Notes under the pieces: generated by a model
Told to the model about the DNA's origin: nothing
Seen by the model: only the letters and a program-made list of their open reading frames with translations
The model's database searches: none
Origin: a virus
Strand: one strand, 5' to 3'
Virus record (IMG/VR): IMGVR_UViG_3300020152_000048
Coordinates: 1-31,927 of that record
Length of the DNA stretch: 31,927 nt
Translations under genes and position numbers: made by a program
Part shown: piece after piece, positions 2,750 to 30,844 of the stretch
Position numbering within the stretch: the stretch's first letter is position 1
How the letters are laid out: each line of letters opens with the position of its first letter

Positions 2750-2755
2750 AGTGTT

Positions 2756-2788
2756 ATTGTCCGACGATTAGGTAAATTAAGCAAATTA
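2756..2788 (-). promoter_or_regulatory. Leftward promoter with overlapping operator (site A)
   Basis: Read on the minus strand: TTGCTT (2784-2779), a 17-base spacer, GACAAT (2761-2756), then 6 bases to the ATG at 2749. The -35 lies inside AAATTAAGCAAATTA (2774-2788), an element repeated at other control regions. Expected to drive the 2749-to-10 operon and to be repressed by whatever protein binds the element. Confidence 0.5.
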
Positions 2789-2803
2789 CACAAACGAATT
2801 AGC

Positions 2804-2829
2804 CTCCTCACCCTATGGTGTGTTATTCT
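2804..2829 (+). promoter_or_regulatory. Putative late-class promoter P1
   Basis: CTCCTC (2804-2809), 11 bases, TGT, TATTCT (2824-2829). The layout is identical to five other sites in this window. Closest to P2: TCCTCA, seven bases, then the identical 12-mer GTGTGTTATTCT. Start of transcription is expected near 2836. Downstream lies the inverted-repeat region ending in a rho-independent terminator. Confidence 0.55.
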
Positions 2830-2913
2830 TAAAATGAGGCGTCAGCCGGGAAGGGGTAAGGGGATAGGCCACAGGGAAGTCCTCAAGACTTCCCGACACG
2901 GTTTGAAACGATC

Positions 2914-3108
2914 GTTAGCTAGCTAGACTGGCTGATCCCCAACAAGGGATCAGCCGTTAGACAGTAATCAATAAACGTAAACAGCTAACTAAACGTGCTA
3001 GCTAGCTATCAGTTAGCTAACAGGAGCGGCCCTGATGGCCGCTCCGTTAAACGTTAGTAACTAACGTTAGTGCCGGGTTTATTTAACGTTTCAGTTAGCT
3101 AACGTTAG
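2914..3108. repeat. GTTAG/CTAAC repeat cluster, possible origin
   Basis: About seven GTTAG and four CTAAC copies in under 200 bases, several combined into perfect 10-base palindromes: GTTAGCTAAC (3012-3021, 3094-3103), CTAACGTTAG (3061-3070, 3099-3108) and GCTAGCTAGC (2997-3006). The position between divergent operons, just left of the primase-helicase genes, is where phage origins are often found. This reading competes with the structured-RNA reading and the two may both be true. Confidence 0.4.
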
Positions 3109-3141
3109 TAAAGCTAGCGCGTAAGCAATAAGCAACCTACC

Positions 3142-3169
3142 GAGCCGCGACCAGCGGCTCTTTTTGTTT
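3142..3169 (+). terminator. Rho-independent terminator
   Basis: Perfect 7-bp stem GAGCCGC/GCGGCTC around loop GACCA, followed directly by TTTTTGTTT. It faces rightward, upstream of the replication genes and downstream of no coding gene. It therefore most likely ends the transcript from P1 before promoter B. Confidence 0.8.
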
Positions 3170-3220
3170 CTACCCACCCCTGTAAACGTTTGTTTACATA
3201 CCTAAACAATTCTTATTGTT

Positions 3221-3264
3221 GTTAATTTACCTAATTTGCTTAATTAACGTAATTTTGGGATACT
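3221..3264 (+). promoter_or_regulatory. Rightward promoter with overlapping operator (site B)
   Basis: TTGCTT (3236-3241), a 17-base spacer, and GATACT (3259-3264) preceded by TGG (extended -10). The -35 lies inside TAATTTGCTTAATT (3232-3245), the reverse of the element in site A, and the 28-base block 3221-3248 has GTTAATT/AATTAAC ends. Site B mirrors site A, so one regulator could control the leftward and replication operons together. Confidence 0.5.
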
Positions 3265-3287
3265 AGTCTAGAGGGAGGAGCGTGAGC

Positions 3288-3518
3288 ATGAACAAGTTTA
3301 TTGCCCCTAAGAGTCTAGGCTGGTCTGAAACCAAAACCGATCCCAATCTTCATTTTTACCAAAAACAAAGCCCCAGAGTTTCTCGTTACGACGTGAAGGA
3401 TGTCGCTACTAAGGAAGACCTCACTCGAAGAGTGGAGTGTGGCTGCCTCATTCACGGACGTCCCAACGCAGGTCGCCCTAAGAAGAAGCTAACGCTGGTC
3501 AAAAACACCAACAGCTAA
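3288..3518 (+). CDS. Small basic protein, first gene of replication operon
   Basis: A 76-residue protein, unrecognised. ATG at 3288 follows AGGAG by 7 bases; a GTG 6 bases earlier is in frame but too close to that site. It contains a CGC pair and a basic C-terminal stretch with GRPNAGRPKKK, which resembles an AT-hook-like or nucleic-acid-binding tail. Lies just upstream of the primase-helicase, so a replication accessory role is possible but unproven. Confidence 0.65.
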   Translation: MNKFIAPKSLGWSETKTDPNLHFYQKQSPRVSRYDVKDVATKEDLTRRVECGCLIHGRPNAGRPKKKLTLVKNTNS

Positions 3519-3812: not shown

Positions 3813-5402
3813 TTGAACGCAGAAGTAAGAGCTATATGCCCATCCTGTGGGTCGGTCACTTTGAAAGGCCGGGTTGATCCTAAGTTTTACTACAACCCTG
3901 AAAAGGGCGTCGGTTACTGCCACCACTGTGGCTTCAAAGGAAAGTTTAACGAGGAACTAGTGGATAACTTAAATGTCATCAGCATCAAAGAAAGAGTTCC
4001 ATTCGATCCAACAAGTTTTGACAGACTTGAGCCTCTCTCTGAAGAGGCTTTGAGATATCTGTCTAAAAGGTTCCCTGGAGTAAACCCCAATCAGCTAGAT
4101 GCATTCCGACTTCGCTACTCGAAGTCACATCATGCTATCGCAATACCCTCCTTTCATAGCGACACGGGGTTACTCCATGGGATTAAGTTTCGTTTCATTG
4201 CACCTACTAATGAGCAACGTTACTCCGCTGAATCCAACAGCGAGTTCGGTGGTTACTGGATTGAGGGACGTAACGACAAACTTCTTATTGTTGAAGGTGA
4301 GTTTGATGCGATCAGTGCGAAGCTTTGTGGTTTTGAGGGTACGGTTCTAGCTCTTCAAACTAACAAGCTATCCCAAGATTCCATTGATCGTGTTCGTCAG
4401 TTCAAAAATGTGTTTCTAGCTTTGGATAACGATAAGGCTGGTACTGAAGGTGCACAGCTCATCTCAAACATCTTGATGCGTGAAGCACAGCGTATCCAAT
4501 TACCAGCAAAAGACATTAATGAATTACTTCAGAAAGAAGGTCTTGATGAAAGTGCTCGACTTATCCGAGAAGCTACAAGAACAGAAATTGAAAAAGCAAC
4601 TGTTCGACTCTCTGACAGCACACGAGAAATGCTGGAGTTCTTATCAGACCAACGGAACACGCGAGGAGATTCTACAGGCTACAGATCACTTGATAGCTTA
4701 CTTGGAGGCGGCTTTAGAGCTGCAGAAATGACAGTCATCAATGCATTCGCCAAGACAGGTAAGACCAGCTTTGTGAATAACATCGTTCACAATCTCGCCT
4801 GTTTAGGTAAGCACGTTGCTATTGCTTCATTCGAGATGGACCCCGCTCGTACTTTATATCCTTCACTGTTATCGATAGCGGGACAGACCAACATCCGATC
4901 TATTCGAGATAAAGAAACTCTAAGTGAAGTGGTGAGTGTAATTCAGTCTGACTGCAGTTACCTCAATAACATTGTTACTCTTAAAAAGTTTGGAACTACA
5001 CCATGGGCTGAAGTGGAGGAGTGGGCCGCTCTTATGAAAGAGCGCTTTGCTATCGATTATCTTGTGCTCGATCATGCTGGATTCATGGTGGAGAAGATGA
5101 CTGATGCTGAAGAGAATCAGATCTTAGCTAAGTCGATAAAAAAGTTATCACTCACATTGGGTGTTCATATACTCGTTGTCGTTCAGGCACCGAAGACCAA
5201 GGATGGCCTATCAATTCAAACATCGTATGGTGGATTAGCTTGGGGTATGAACGCAGACAACTTCATCATTCTTGAGAGATCTAAAGATGATGACACTGAA
5301 TTAAGAGTAAAGCTTGAAGCAGCCCGTTATCCTGGGGCTAATCCTTCACACACACCAGCATTGCTTTACTATGACCGCGATACTTGTGCTTTGATTGAGT
5401 GA
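3813..5402 (+). CDS. Bifunctional DNA primase-helicase (T7 gp4-like)
   Basis: A 529-residue replication protein that should make primers and unwind DNA at the fork. Zinc ribbon: Cys9, Cys12, Cys36, Cys39 (CPSCG, CHHCG). TOPRIM primase core: LLIVEGEFDAISA (about 157-169) and LALDNDKAG (203-210) with the DxD acidic pair. RecA-like DnaB/gp4 helicase: Walker A AFAKTGKTSF (311-320, Lys317; the first Gly of the usual motif is Ala), Walker B YLVLDHAG (416-423), VVVQAPK (455-461) and a RYPG arginine segment (505-508). Length fits T7 gp4 (566 residues). Start is TTG at 3813 with GAGGGG 9 bases upstream. The end overlaps the convergent HTH gene by 34 bases. Confidence 0.9.
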   Translation: MNAEVRAICPSCGSVTLKGRVDPKFYYNPEKGVGYCHHCGFKGKFNEELVDNLNVISIKERVPFDPTSFDRLEPLSEEALRYLSKRFPGVNPNQLDAFRLRYSKSHHAIAIPSFHSDTGLLHGIKFRFIAPTNEQRYSAESNSEFGGYWIEGRNDKLLIVEGEFDAISAKLCGFEGTVLALQTNKLSQDSIDRVRQFKNVFLALDNDKAGTEGAQLISNILMREAQRIQLPAKDINELLQKEGLDESARLIREATRTEIEKATVRLSDSTREMLEFLSDQRNTRGDSTGYRSLDSLLGGGFRAAEMTVINAFAKTGKTSFVNNIVHNLACLGKHVAIASFEMDPARTLYPSLLSIAGQTNIRSIRDKETLSEVVSVIQSDCSYLNNIVTLKKFGTTPWAEVEEWAALMKERFAIDYLVLDHAGFMVEKMTDAEENQILAKSIKKLSLTLGVHILVVVQAPKTKDGLSIQTSYGGLAWGMNADNFIILERSKDDDTELRVKLEAARYPGANPSHTPALLYYDRDTCALIE

Positions 5403-6647: not shown

Positions 6648-6848
6648 TTAAACCTCCACCACTGGGATGCCGTTGATTGCTCCGATTACTCGTGAATAAT
6701 GAAAGTGCTTTGCCAATTCACCTTTAGTAATCCAGGTAGCTTGCTCGTAAATATCTGTAGCTGCGTGATGAAAGATCACACGTGTCTTACCTTTGTACTG
6801 ATCTGTTACCTGCTGTGCTTCAGTAGGTTTGTATCTAGTTGCCGTCAT
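6648..6848 (-). CDS. Hypothetical 66-residue protein
   Basis: GAGGGAG lies 6 bases before the ATG. The product is a small soluble protein (RYKPTEAQQVTDQYKG, RVIFHHAATDIYEQA, KGELAKHFHYSRVIGAINGIPVVEV). The last half could be a short helix-turn-helix-like fold (TKGELAKHFHYSRVIGAI), which is speculative. It overlaps the preceding 45-residue gene by 14 bases. Confidence 0.6.
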   Translation of the reverse strand: MTATRYKPTEAQQVTDQYKGKTRVIFHHAATDIYEQATWITKGELAKHFHYSRVIGAINGIPVVEV

Positions 6849-6972
6849 TAAGTTCTCCCTCTAACTCGGCAATGATTTGATTGATCTCTTCGAAGTAAAT
6901 ATCGAGAGCTTTCTTGTTGAGTTCTTTGTGCTCTCTTAGGACTTGTTCGTATTTACTGATGTGTTCTTTCAT
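6835..6972 (-). CDS. Small acidic helical protein, 45 residues
   Basis: The product (MKEHISKYEQVLREHKELNKK...) is one continuous charged helix, probably coiled coil. It is the first gene of the second leftward operon. No Shine-Dalgarno is visible; the -10-like GACAAT ends 4 bases upstream of the ATG. The 14-base overlap with the next gene supports it as a real translated ORF. Confidence 0.5.
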   Translation of the reverse strand: MKEHISKYEQVLREHKELNKKALDIYFEEINQIIAELEGELNDGN

Positions 6973-6976
6973 AATC

Positions 6977-7019
6977 ATTGTCTCATACGTTTAGATAATT
7001 AAGCTAATTTGCTTAATTT
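6977..7019 (-). promoter_or_regulatory. Leftward promoter with overlapping operator (site C)
   Basis: On the minus strand TGA then GACAAT (6982-6977) forms an extended -10, and TAGCTT (7006-7001) lies 18 bases upstream. TAATTTGCTTAATTT (7005-7019) is the same 15-mer, reversed, as in site A, and overlaps the -35. Drives the operon 6972-5827. Confidence 0.45.
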
Positions 7020-7071
7020 GAATAAATGCACGAAGCGTGCCGAGAAAAAGGCTAGTGATTTCAATGGGTGA

Positions 7072-7090
7072 TTTAGCAAATTAAGCTAAA
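7072..7090. promoter_or_regulatory. Operator-like palindrome (site D)
   Basis: TTTAGCAAATTAAGCTAAA, a near-perfect palindrome with the AGCAAATTA core. Its centre is about 70 bases from that of site C, close to a whole number of helical turns, which would suit looping or cooperative binding. A small hairpin GCACG/CGTGC (7028-7040) lies between C and D. Confidence 0.4.
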
Positions 7091-7171
7091 AGTTGTCGGT
7101 GATTCGACAGTTCGCGACAAATAGCTGAAATTGTTTTGGATTTGAGTGATACAAAAGTGACACTTTGGGCC

Positions 7172-7197
7172 GTCCTCAAAGGAGAGTGTGTTATTCT
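7172..7197 (+). promoter_or_regulatory. Putative late-class promoter P2
   Basis: GTCCTC (7172-7177), 11 bases, TGT, TATTCT (7192-7197). Shares GTGTGTTATTCT and the TCCTCA seven bases before it with P1. It faces the terminase genes, with the first ORF about 340 bases downstream. Confidence 0.55.
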
Positions 7198-7203
7198 GAT
7201 TAC

Positions 7204-7538
7204 AAATAGAGAAGGGCTCTGCTCGCAGAAAAAAGCTCCACGAGGCAAAAAGCCTCATGATAGATAGGTGAAGTGTATTTTATGTTATATAAAACGCACA
7301 AAGACCCCGTATAAACGCATTTAAAGCCCTCCTCACAAAAGGCCCCAACCCCCAGATAGACCTCCACACACCTCTCTCCACACATACAGGTGTGCATATA
7401 ACGTGGTTATAAGGCGTGTAGATCGGTTTAAACCAAGGCGCGGGATAATAAATCAAAAACACGAAGGGGCGGTGACCGCAGCCTGCTCTCTCCCAGGAAT
7501 CCCTATAGGGGTACCTAGACCAGGAAATTTCCCATTTT
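7204..7538. other. Gene-free region, probable packaging (cos/pac) site
   Basis: About 335 bases without a credible gene, between P2 and the terminase genes. It contains GAGGC/GCCTC (7242-7256), TATAAC/GTTATA (7397-7411) and three perfect 10-base palindromes: GGTTTAAACC (7425-7434), CCCTATAGGG (7501-7510) and GGAAATTTCC (7523-7532). Packaging sites commonly lie next to or inside the small terminase gene and contain such symmetric sites. That is context only; no cleavage site can be read. The region could instead be a long structured leader of the late mRNA. Confidence 0.35.
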
Positions 7539-7733
7539 ATGAGTTTGATCAGACAAAAAGCTTCCAAATCAGTTGAACGAAATTCTCTCTCGATAAAATT
7601 AATTTTGGTGAACAAAAAAGGCGACGTTTTGGACGAGTCTGAAGCCTGGCAAGCACTAGTGGATTGCTTCAAAAAACATCCGACGCTTGATGTTCATCAA
7701 GCTGAAATTGGACCTAACAAAGATGGGGAATAA
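7539..7733 (+). CDS. Hypothetical small protein upstream of terminase
   Basis: A 64-residue product with a coherent globular pattern (IKLILVNKKGDVLDESEAWQALVDCFKKHPT). The Shine-Dalgarno (AGGAAA, about 13 bases before ATG) is poorly spaced. Its end overlaps the small terminase start by 11 bases, which suggests coupling. No family recognised. Confidence 0.55.
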   Translation: MSLIRQKASKSVERNSLSIKLILVNKKGDVLDESEAWQALVDCFKKHPTLDVHQAEIGPNKDGE

Positions 7734-27064: not shown

Positions 27065-28111
27065 TTATAGCTTGGCCGCTCTGGATAAGGATTCTGGTGT
27101 AGCGATGAAACCAGCGTAGTACTTTTCTACTACGGCAACGGTGTCTCCGAGAAAAGTAGCAACGTCGTAGATTGGAAGGCCCTTTGAAAGCCAGTAGACA
27201 CTGTAGGAGTGTCGTAAGTCATGGAACGTGATCGCACGCCCTAAAGCTTTTTTGGAAGCGTGACGAACTTTCTTTGAGAAAGACATTTTTCGATGTTTTA
27301 AACGTTCCTCAATCGAGATCGCAATCCATTGCTTCATGTAACCTTCGTAACCCTTGATCATGAGAGCTACTCGAGGTTTACGGTTTTTTGTCTGACGAAT
27401 AACTTTGTCGTAATCCGCTTGTTTATAAATAGCGAGCTCCCTGCCTGAAAGGGATTGGGGTTCCAGTGCAAACAATTCTCCAGCTCTGCAACCAGAACCG
27501 AACGCAGCTGCACAAAGCAGCTTCAGAAAGTCACTCTCTAAGTGTGTTAGAATTTTCTGAAATTCTTCTTCAGTAACAGACCGTACTTGATGAAACTCTT
27601 CTCTTGCCCGCTTCAGTTTCACATTTACTCGAAAGTGCCTAAGAATCTGATTCAGAGTAGAAATTATTTCTCGCTGTTTGTTGCCTGCGTAGTTTTTGTT
27701 CACAGCATTCTGAAGTTCACGACGGGAGGCAGAAAGTAGTGAATAGCTACCTACAGCATCAACTGCCCTGACCAGTCGATTCCATGCTGAATCGACATCA
27801 ACTATTTCCCGGTCGGCGTACTCTTCTTCCCAATACTGATTGAGAAGTCTCTTATTCGCTTCGTTAAACAACACAGCTCGTTTTGGGGAAAGTTGATGGA
27901 TGACGTCTTTACAAGCAAGTTGAGCTTCAATGAAAGTCAGCTTTCCTGAACGGAACAACTGATTAATTGAATCGATAGCCTCTGACCTGTAGACTCTGGT
28001 TTTGCCGTCAGGAAGACGTTCGATGAGAGAAAACTTAGCCGACTCGTTTTTTGCGGTTGGGCTCTTCAGGTAAATTGAACAACGTTCTAGGGTTTGTAAG
28101 ATCCGAGGCAT
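27065..28111 (-). CDS. int: Tyrosine-family integrase
   Basis: A 348-residue site-specific recombinase. The catalytic domain shows Arg209 (GSGCRAGELFAL), Lys242 (QTKNRK), HDLRHSYSVYW with His297 and Arg300, and the nucleophile Tyr331/Tyr332 in EKYYAG. The usual His/Trp before the tyrosine (LGH) is Asp323 (LGDT). This variant probably remains active, because the other residues are intact. The N-terminal half should carry the arm/core-binding domains. The start at 28111 has no good Shine-Dalgarno and overlaps a small ORF (28035-28187), so the true N-terminus is uncertain. It sits downstream of tRNA-Phe and the candidate attP. Confidence 0.87.
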   Translation of the reverse strand: MPRILQTLERCSIYLKSPTAKNESAKFSLIERLPDGKTRVYRSEAIDSINQLFRSGKLTFIEAQLACKDVIHQLSPKRAVLFNEANKRLLNQYWEEEYADREIVDVDSAWNRLVRAVDAVGSYSLLSASRRELQNAVNKNYAGNKQREIISTLNQILRHFRVNVKLKRAREEFHQVRSVTEEEFQKILTHLESDFLKLLCAAAFGSGCRAGELFALEPQSLSGRELAIYKQADYDKVIRQTKNRKPRVALMIKGYEGYMKQWIAISIEERLKHRKMSFSKKVRHASKKALGRAITFHDLRHSYSVYWLSKGLPIYDVATFLGDTVAVVEKYYAGFIATPESLSRAAKL

Positions 28112-28187
28112 CTGCTAGTTTCTTGAGCTCAGTATATAGCAGACTTATAGATTTGAGGGGAGCGAAGCCAGAAGCTTCAAGCCTCAT
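28035..28187 (-). CDS. Small ORF overlapping integrase start, possible excisionase-type accessory
   Basis: 50 residues (MRLEASGFAPLKSISLLYTELKKLADA...) with an excellent GGAG 5-6 bases before the ATG at 28187, better than that of integrase itself. Ends in basic PNRKKRVG. It overlaps the integrase frame by 77 bases. It could be a directionality factor, a leader that couples translation, or the displaced N-terminus of integrase if there is a frameshift. No family recognised. Confidence 0.4.
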   Translation of the reverse strand: MRLEASGFAPLKSISLLYTELKKLADASDLTNPRTLFNLPEEPNRKKRVG

Positions 28188-28240
28188 AGCTCTCCGTATT
28201 AGACGAGCATATCTCCAAGTGGTGAGATCTACTAAGGAAT

Positions 28241-28313
28241 TGCCCAGAGGCGGAATCGAACCACCGACACGGAGATTTTCAGTCTCCTGCTCTACCGACT
28301 GAGCTATCTGGGC
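28241..28313 (-). tRNA. tRNA-Phe (GAA)
   Basis: Complete 73-base cloverleaf on the minus strand. Acceptor stem GCCCAGA/TCTGGGC; D-arm GCTCAGTCGGTAGAGC; anticodon stem GGAGA/TCTCC around loop CTGAAAA (anticodon GAA); T-arm GGTGG TTCGATT CCGCC; discriminator A. No encoded CCA. Lies directly upstream of integrase and downstream of a promoter at 28416-28388. Confidence 0.93.
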
Positions 28314-28320
28314 ATCTTTA

Positions 28321-28738: not shown

Positions 28739-29061
28739 ACGACCGCCCCCATCAAAATTGAAACGCCAGAGGCGATATAGGCCGCTACTTTGTAGAACTG
28801 AATTTCAGAGCGAAAGTAGGCGATAGCATTGCTTAGGGATTGACGTGTTTCAAAGTCAGCCTTGCGCCCTTCTTGCTTTGCCTTCTCAATCTCATCGGCA
28901 AGTTGAGTTAATGTTTGATGAACGTAAGTATGCTGATCTCCAATAAAGGTGATCACGCTCCTGACTGAAGCGTCTAACTCACCCACCCTTTGCTGGATGG
29001 TTTGATTGACCTGTGACTTGTGATATTCGATCACTGCTGGATTAAGAAACTTACTATCCAT
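28723..29061 (-). CDS. Coiled-coil protein with C-terminal membrane anchor
   Basis: 112 residues. A long helical, heptad-rich body (about 15-90, TLTQLADEIEKAKQEGRKADFETRQSLSNAI) ends in one hydrophobic span (about 92-110, VAAYIASGVSILMGAVVWLV), a tail-anchored layout. The start overlaps the upstream Maf-like gene by 8 bases, so the two are probably coupled and may act together at the membrane. Confidence 0.65.
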   Translation of the reverse strand: MDSKFLNPAVIEYHKSQVNQTIQQRVGELDASVRSVITFIGDQHTYVHQTLTQLADEIEKAKQEGRKADFETRQSLSNAIAYFRSEIQFYKVAAYIASGVSILMGAVVWLVK

Positions 29062-30844
29062 TCGGGTTCCCCTCCTCTTTAAAGATTTTGATTAGGCGTG
29101 TGAGTGTCTCTTGAAAAAGTTCGAAACGTTCTTTGAGAACCTGACATTTTTCATGCATGTCCGTGTTCGGGGTAAGTCCGTAAGACCACCATTTGTTCTC
29201 AAGTTCGAAGAAGCGTGTCGCACAACATTGGATAACGAAGGCAACAAACATGTCATCGTTGCAACAACGCATGAACATATACATTAGAGCTGCGAAGCGA
29301 TCTTCCGGAACGGTTTCGAAAGCCTGAAGCGCTTCTGCTTCATCAATAGATCGTTCGGCTTGGATCAAAAAACCTTCTAAGTTTTTTACTAGCTCTTTGT
29401 TGTCCCACGATCGGTAGTAAATGACTTTGCTGTCTTCGGGTTTCGTAGGATCAACGGGATCTAACTTTTCAGCTGCTTCTGCTAGGTCGACATAGGGAAC
29501 ACCAAGGATCGGCAAGCCTTTTGCCGAGCAGTTGCTAACTGTTGCTCTTTGACCAATGTAACCAAGCTCTTCTCCGTATTCTTTAGCCCACTGATAGTAA
29601 GTAATGTTGGTGACGACATCAGAGCCGTCATTGGCTTTCATCGTAAGAGTTGGGGCGTGTGTTCGCTTTGTTTGAAAATCCTCTAACGGGATGTAATTAC
29701 CCCAGTCAGGATGACCGGTTCCGGAACAATGGGAACGATAGAGGCCATCTTTTTCTTCGTAGGTGCTATCAATGCCAACTAAGAAAATCTTTCGACAACC
29801 AAAGTAGTCTGCGAGACGGAAACCAAGATGAGAAGTAGACCCGCCGCATCTCAGAATTCCTTTTGGAAAGGATTTTTCAAAGTAAGCGTAGAAGCTATAG
29901 TTGCGGTAAACAATGCGGACCTGGCCGGGGTAAAGGTCAAGGACTTCGGGGTGTACCACTGGAAAAGCGACCAAGTCCGCACTGACTTCCTCGAGCCCTT
30001 CGAAGAAGGGTTTCTGATAGGAATTCAAACGTTCGATTGAGGTAACGAAATCAACCCTGATGCCTGCATTAACAAGAGGCTTCAACGCCGCATCAGCTGC
30101 AATTACGATGAAGCGATCATTGTATTTCTTAATCTTCTCTAGATTCTGATCAAGAGAGGGACCAGCCCCTACTACAAGGGCGGACATACCTTTATAGTGA
30201 TCTTTCAACGTAGAAACTCCAGGAGCTGAAAGAAGCCAATCCTTGTTGCGAACAGTGACTTCAACTCCAAGAAGAGAGTCATCAAGATTGCCATGGTTGT
30301 GAAACACATGACTGCATGTTTCTCGATAAGCAGTTGCAAGTTGTTGATAAAAACCAGCTGCCTCTGGCAAACGCGCATCGATAACGTTCAAAATTTGTAC
30401 GTTGAGCATTAAACTCGTGACGTGCTCAGGCTTCAAAGCACGGAACAAAGCAGGCTTAACTGAATCAACCGAGTGAAGAAGAAACCACTCTGCTTTCTCA
30501 TAATTGATAATCTGGGTCAGATCTGCATTTTGAAAACAGAATGCAATGAACTCTGGATCGTTCTCGAAAATAAATAATCTAAAGTTCTCTCGTTGAACCG
30601 TTGAATCACTAAGAAGTGTTCCTAGGAAAACGGGATTTCCAATCCCCGTTAGCAGAATAACTCTCATCGGTGGTTTAGAAGGTGCTGCCGGAACTTCGAT
30701 TTCATCTAACTGAAATAGAGGTGCTGGCTTACGGAGTGTTTCTTCTAACCGAGCTTTTTCGTAAGGATAGCGATTGAAAAAAGCTTTCAAGTTGGCTTCG
30801 AGAGTCGGATTAACATACGACTGTGGGACGACTAGATTAGACAT
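29054..30844 (-). CDS. Maf/DUF115-like (MptE-related) glycosyltransferase-type protein
   Basis: 596 residues. The core from about residue 200 holds MSALVVGAGPSLDQNLEKIKKYNDRFIVIAADAALKPLVNAGIRVDFVTSIE (GAGPSL at 226-231). Then come a GGSTSHLGFRLADYFGCRKIFLVGID segment and SHCSGTGHP. These are hallmarks of DUF115, the domain shared by flagellin-modifying Maf proteins (transfer of nonulosonic acids in Campylobacter, Aeromonas and others) and MptE pyrophosphokinases. An N-terminal Rossmann-like part (MRVILLTGIGNPVFLG; LFIFENDPEFIAFC) is also Maf-like. GGGAGGG lies 6 bases before the ATG. The substrate is unknown; modification of host surface or flagellin is possible. Confidence 0.75.
   Translation of the reverse strand: MSNLVVPQSYVNPTLEANLKAFFNRYPYEKARLEETLRKPAPLFQLDEIEVPAAPSKPPMRVILLTGIGNPVFLGTLLSDSTVQRENFRLFIFENDPEFIAFCFQNADLTQIINYEKAEWFLLHSVDSVKPALFRALKPEHVTSLMLNVQILNVIDARLPEAAGFYQQLATAYRETCSHVFHNHGNLDDSLLGVEVTVRNKDWLLSAPGVSTLKDHYKGMSALVVGAGPSLDQNLEKIKKYNDRFIVIAADAALKPLVNAGIRVDFVTSIERLNSYQKPFFEGLEEVSADLVAFPVVHPEVLDLYPGQVRIVYRNYSFYAYFEKSFPKGILRCGGSTSHLGFRLADYFGCRKIFLVGIDSTYEEKDGLYRSHCSGTGHPDWGNYIPLEDFQTKRTHAPTLTMKANDGSDVVTNITYYQWAKEYGEELGYIGQRATVSNCSAKGLPILGVPYVDLAEAAEKLDPVDPTKPEDSKVIYYRSWDNKELVKNLEGFLIQAERSIDEAEALQAFETVPEDRFAALMYMFMRCCNDDMFVAFVIQCCATRFFELENKWWSYGLTPNTDMHEKCQVLKERFELFQETLTRLIKIFKEEGNPNG

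Follow-up and report, generated by a model that had tools for sequence, protein, structure and literature searches.

A candidate structured early RNA in the gap upstream of a phage primase-helicase operon

In phage P4, the structured CI immunity RNA, or leader of the alpha operon, starts at an early promoter shortly before the primase-helicase operon and ends before reaching it. The put RNAs of HK022 are about 70 nt long and contain two bulged stem-loops (PMC9378689), lambda OOP is an antisense RNA to cII (reviewed in PMC12197685), and GOLLD, often longer than 800 nt, tends to lie near tRNA islands (PMC12286853). Here we analysed a non-coding segment of a viral contig that we read, with a probability of roughly 0.5, as encoding an early structured non-coding RNA driven by a promoter termed P1, situated in a replication control hub and probably tuning the adjacent operon.

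The window, by which we mean the whole stretch of DNA analysed, is a 31,927-bp virus contig with a tailed-phage gene set that includes primase/helicase, large terminase, portal and integrase. The structured region (2836-3169) lies inside a 532-bp gap (2750-3281), which is flanked by a leftward operon on one side and by the rightward primase/helicase operon on the other. The primase/helicase gene (3813..5402, plus strand; Toprim and DnaB_C) served as the syntenic anchor for relatives. The first small gene of the rightward operon (3282..3518, plus strand) has similar genes at the same place in two relatives, G003 and G004, a likeness judged by eye from an LGWSE / LGWAE motif. No ORF of at least 40 aa was found within the gap, including 2836-3169, and no micro-ORF is conserved among the window region and its counterparts in four relatives, in agreement with the first-pass annotation, which had seen no conserved gene there. 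Elsewhere in the window, at 27065-28314, a tyrosine integrase gene adjoins a tRNA-Phe gene (28240-28314, minus strand); the latter may be the attachment site, in which case the phage would be temperate. A 596-aa MptE-like protein (29054-30844; PF01973), which has no PHROG match and is unusual phage cargo, is encoded next to a gene for a DNA polymerase exonuclease subunit. The leftward operon contains a homing-endonuclease-like ORF (818-1294; PHROG 5046 'HNH endonuclease'), the start of which looks LAGLIDADG-like by eye.

The region is made up of four looped GC-rich hairpins, AT-rich palindromic repeats and an intrinsic terminator, and all perfect stems previously listed for it were recovered. 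On the plus strand, a G-rich predicted 5' leader (2836..2873) resembles by eye the leader of G003 (ATGRGGC...GGGTAAGGG), a likeness that is just marginal in pairwise alignment. Downstream lie hairpin 1 (2874..2894), with a perfect 8-bp stem and the loop CTCAA; hairpin 2 (2930..2955), with a perfect 10-bp stem and the 6-nt loop CAACAA; and hairpin 3 (3023..3045), with a perfect 9-bp stem and the 5-nt loop CTGAT. They are followed by a hairpin or palindrome, AACGTTAGTAACTAACGTT (3050..3068), whose arms AACGTTAGT and ACTAACGTT form a perfect stem. A canonical terminator (3142..3169), consisting of a 7-bp GC stem (3142-3160) and then TTTTTGTTT, closes the region as had been proposed. The region further contains the perfect palindrome GTTAGCTAAC (3012..3021, unstranded), with a second copy at 3094-3103. 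Two kinds of element are mixed here. In the GC-rich hairpins, the loops measure 5-6 nt and the sequences are unrelated to one another, as RNA structure would lead one to expect. Within the AT-rich part, short palindromes lacking a loop recur (TAGCTAGCTA and GTTAGCTAAC in two copies each, and CTAACGTTAG), as would be expected for DNA-binding sites. The 11-bp long-range helix reported around hairpin 2 (2916-2926 / 2998-3008, plus strand) is also present. It is composed of two copies of the TAGCTAGCTA palindrome and one flanking pair, and because a directly repeated palindrome automatically gives an inverted repeat, it is weak evidence for pairing in an RNA.

The region carries structure well beyond that of dinucleotide shuffles. 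The plus strand folds at -135 kcal/mol, and the fold z was -8.6 for the plus strand and -8.0 for the minus strand (-6.7 and -8.2, respectively, in a repeat run with other shuffles). The region has five perfect stem-loops with stems of 7 bp or more, where 0.15 would be expected, and 2926-3075 shows the biggest energy excess among all 150-nt windows of the whole contig; region limits and thresholds, like the transcript ends and promoter score used below, were chosen after the sequences had been seen. Together, the z values on both strands, the stem-loop count and the top energy excess exclude chance folding. The two strands fold equally well, and folding thus shows no strand preference. Base asymmetry at the loop ends, counted by eye as a possible strand clue, was too weak and was dropped.

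Helicase and portal searches identified four relatives, giving five genomes with the window. Three are IMG/VR phages whose helicases are 70% (G003, 45,224 bp), 55% (G001, 43,262 bp) and 44% (G004, 47,160 bp) identical to that of the window; the fourth, GenBank MW202601, has a 33% identical portal and a helicase that is 23% identical over part of its length. In all four, no gene lies in the gap that immediately precedes the primase-helicase operon, and this gap contains hairpins or palindromic repeats; the structured stretch sits between divergent early operons, the same place as in the window. This gap is the top structured non-coding segment in each of the five genomes, a ranking made for MW202601 among the fetched loci only. 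The gap z was -7.3 in G004, -7.2 in MW202601, -6.8 in G003, -4.9 in G001 and -4.6 in the window. The reference set, 96 non-coding segments with a minimum length of 200 nt from the five genomes and the other helicase loci, had a median of -0.8. The energy of local hairpins (span up to 35) is significant in 5/5 genomes; the excess of perfect stem-loops is not significant in G001 (p 0.15) and MW202601 (p 0.12). Some segments close to more distant helicases (L046, L062 and L019) looked structured but proved on reading to differ in layout and were set aside. A further helicase alignment scan returned already known relatives only, a similarity search against phage DNA gave no match, and no host or prophage emerged when GTDB genome contigs were scanned with the helicase and the portal. 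The portal gene of G001 is split across both ends of its 43,262-bp contig, which probably represents a near-complete, circularly permuted genome. In G004, locus L086 contains an ORF (6797-7558) with a long low-complexity ADAAAYASA repeat that is readable in several frames.

The layout is kept in the five genomes and the sequences are essentially unalignable, which makes proper covariation statistics impossible. Of ten pairwise comparisons, only that between the window and G004 beats all shuffles, and it does so through AT repeats. MAFFT alignments of the five regions were meaningless, as shuffled controls confirmed. In hairpin 2, the arms are GGCTGATCC/GGATCAGCC in the window and GGCTGAACC/GGTTCAGCC in G003. 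The two stems are near-identical and differ by one compensatory T-A to A-T change, a single and anecdotal case; the likeness is one sign that the two regions may share descent. A long-range helix around hairpin 2 that the window seemed to share with G001 was dropped as proof, since its arms are palindrome copies in both. In the window and G003, the GC hairpins differ from one another in sequence and their loops are 5-7 nt long, so that a structural role fits them better than binding of a single protein. These comparisons suggest that a folding or repeat pattern, rather than a sequence, is kept across the five viruses. The layout indicates that something at this site is under selection, and does not on its own make the molecule RNA. 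The view of the region as a candidate structured RNA was upheld in so far as the structure is strong and its position and character recur in four relatives; with two strands that fold equally and a long-range helix made of palindrome copies, the functional molecule may be RNA or DNA.

The strongest rival places the function in the DNA. The region would then be a phage replication origin or DNA control array, in which the AT palindromes are sites for an initiator or regulator, the GC hairpins form as single-stranded or cruciform DNA, and P1 supplies just activating or priming transcription. We consider this somewhat unlikely, and its standing comes from strands that fold equally, iteron-like repeats in 4/5 genomes and a divergence too high for covariation. 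The region adjoins the primase-helicase gene, and its long-range helix comes down to a palindrome present twice. Direct 9-mer repeats are far above chance in the window, G004 and G001 and weakly so in MW202601, but repeated 9-mers are absent from G003. The words AGCTAA/TTAGCT (and CTAA) are enriched on both strands in the regions of four related genomes. Against an origin, the window unit is closed by a canonical intrinsic terminator and the GC hairpins of one genome share no motif. DnaA boxes were not found in any of the five regions, although phage origins need not have them. GC skew, which is confounded by divergent transcription, decides nothing here.

The reading of the region as an early RNA draws on the promoters around it. 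Promoter-like sites on the same strand occur at the 5' edge of the region and at PR, the promoter of the helicase operon, in 5/5 genomes. They were scored on both strands with a simple sigma-70 score carrying weights that we set ourselves, an E. coli approximation for phages whose hosts are unknown. In the window, P1 (TAGCCT 2800-2805, 18-nt spacer, TATTCT 2824-2829, plus strand; extended TG) is modest: it ranks 75 in the contig, and a strict sigma-70 scan of the window genome calls no site there. The case for the rightward promoter postulated by the first-pass annotation consequently rests on the equivalent site in the relatives, which ranks 1 in G003, G001 and MW202601 and 16 in G004. PR (3222..3264; TTGCTT 3236-3241, 17-nt spacer, GATACT 3259-3264, plus strand) overlaps an operator-like TTAATTTACCTAATTTGCTTAATTA and ranks 61 in the window, 6 in G003, 8 in G001, 5 in G004 and 3 in MW202601. 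In MW202601, the top three promoters in 46 kb are P1, PR and the promoter PL, all flanking the putative RNA. Such genome-wide ranks are the least arbitrary of the tests applied, yet strong promoters would be expected between divergent operons anyway.

Operator-like sequences accompany these promoters. Between PL and P1 of the window lies an AT-rich site, ATTAGGTAAATTAAGCAAATTA (2767..2788, unstranded), which contains a 14-nt perfect inverted repeat. An inverted copy is found at PR (3222-3246), and exact or near copies occur at control regions only. Its core TAATTTGCTTAATT is present upstream of P1 and in PR, and also at 7005 and 7070; given the presence of this word near a putative late region, the window alone leaves the timing of P1 undecided. 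In G003, P1 is a consensus promoter (TTGTCA-18-TATACT) that overlaps a TTTGTCAAAAGTGTCA-type operator, and copies of this one operator type overlap PL, P1 and PR. Sharing its operator type with PL and PR, P1 looks early, at least in G003. TTTGTCAAAAGTGTCA-like operators occur at about 10 sites in the G003 genome, and their specificity is quite unlike that of the window despite helicases that are 70% identical. On these operator sequences, the two look like heteroimmune phages, and we take the pattern to reflect an early regulon in which closely related phages have swapped operator specificity.

The 3' boundary of the region differs among the genomes. A canonical U-tract terminator is found in the window only. 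In MW202601, a weak A/U hairpin precedes a T10 tract, which the strict terminator scan does not call. In G003, G001 and G004 no U-tract terminator was found; PR is preceded there by a GC hairpin and by a stretch rich in C and poor in G. The stretch belongs to the top 0.1-0.4% of each genome for C minus G and would be compatible with a Rho-dependent ending. In these three genomes the RNA could alternatively serve the replication operon as a long leader. The predicted RNA lengths, whose ends are guesses from promoter scores, are 335 nt in the window, ∼317 nt in G003, ∼215 nt in MW202601 and ∼465-475 nt in G001 and G004.

A cis-acting antiterminator or leader of the HK022 put type, in which nascent hairpins act on RNA polymerase to let P1 transcription pass the terminator into the replication operon, would match the position of the hairpins, directly 3' of a strong early promoter and 5' of a terminator, and the lack of a U-tract between RNA and operon in G003, G001 and G004. 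The regions are nevertheless ∼215-475 nt long, with several hairpins that are perfect in the window and G003, and thus have neither the size nor the shape of a put RNA. Moreover, with a separate PR in every genome, read-through from P1 is not needed. We regard a put-type element as improbable.

The first-pass annotation had suggested that P1 might belong to the late class and that the RNA might act in packaging or host takeover. The idea of lateness probably came from the 12-nt P1 -10 word GTGTGTTATTCT, which recurs at ∼7186 ahead of the terminase operon. This P1-like site is probably a late promoter; it lies in a second divergent control region (6979-7200) that also contains the two TAATTTGCTTAATT copies at 7005 and 7070. 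A similar motif, TGTGTGTTACTATT, is present near 34.4 kb of the reverse complement of G003. A discrete terminated RNA could indeed work in trans, but a late class is not supported: the G003 promoter is a consensus site on an operator type that PL and PR share, and P1 is the best promoter match of the genome in G001 and MW202601 too. The region also lies beside replication genes rather than packaging genes, and a packaging role was not supported. We judge a late trans-acting RNA even less probable than a put-type element. That the region is a chance product or artefact of functionless low-complexity palindromic repeats is very improbable: repeated palindromes account for part of the pairing, but the local hairpins are significant on their own and the same place and character recur in five independently assembled genomes, each time as the top structured non-coding segment.

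The P1-driven early RNA would operate as follows. P1 would start a rightward transcript near 2836, which would fold into an array of GC-rich hairpins with AT-rich palindromic repeats between them. In the window, the intrinsic terminator would end the transcript at ∼3169, just short of PR, the second early promoter, and PR would then start the replication operon. The RNA would act on the early/replication operon either as a discrete RNA or, where the U-tract is absent, as a leader, and the DNA repeats could additionally serve as sites for phage proteins. We infer three steps in this scheme: production of the transcript, its early timing, and its control over expression of the adjacent operon. 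That a transcribed structured RNA exists is in our judgement fairly probable. The regulatory step, in which the RNA sets the expression of the adjacent early/replication operon, is put forward tentatively. More speculative is the proposal that these loci represent a kind of early phage RNA new to science, recognisable by where it lies and by its array of hairpins rather than by sequence, made from a promoter among the strongest in the genome beside the replication operon and diverging faster than the neighbouring proteins; such divergence is as expected of RNA-based immunity or replication control under diversifying selection.

If the region is transcribed, it yields an early phage RNA beyond the reach of any sequence- or covariance-based library, because promoter position and hairpin layout alone persist and the sequence is replaced even between phages whose helicases are 70% identical. 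This would suggest that phage early control regions hide a layer of fast-evolving RNA. The layout also provides a search recipe: the genome-best promoter together with the most structured non-coding segment upstream of a primase-helicase. Should the region be a replication origin instead, it would nevertheless locate the control hub in a group of phages for which no cultured relative was found.

The region has no counterpart among the known RNA families, as had been anticipated. At the gathering threshold, a covariance-model search with Rfam 15 detected only the tRNA-Phe in the window and nothing in the loci of the four relatives; at a permissive threshold the best match had an E of 0.12 and none was significant. 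The best sub-threshold hit of the window is to the Gifsy-1 IsrK sRNA (RF01394; 18.4 bits, E 0.12); it covers the 3' part and the terminator, far under the gathering score of 50 and at chance level. A search for complementarity between the region and the remaining genome turned up operators and no antisense targets, with no target of at least 12 nt standing out beyond the operators. GOLLD and ROOL are likewise large structured phage RNAs of unknown function, and GOLLD has palindromic loop contacts, but Rfam contains models for both families and none matches this region. Lambda OOP and the ColE1-type replication RNAs share with the putative RNA the arrangement of a small terminated RNA beside replication genes; unlike OOP, it is overlapped by no gene on the opposite strand. 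HK022 putL and putR are likewise hairpins that arise in RNA newly transcribed from an early phage promoter, in a ∼70-nt unit with two bulged stem-loops compared with the predicted hairpin arrays of 215-475 nt here. The P4 RNA resembles the present case in its short internally complementary repeats and its fast-diverging control region. It differs in that our loci have a separate PR downstream of the RNA, protein-type operators and no Rfam sequence match, and CI-like processing of the RNA and seqA/seqB pairing belong to the P4 system, in which a processed RNA pairs with leader target sites and transcription stops prematurely. The nearest functional parallel to the putative RNA would be the primase-helicase leader/immunity RNA of P4.
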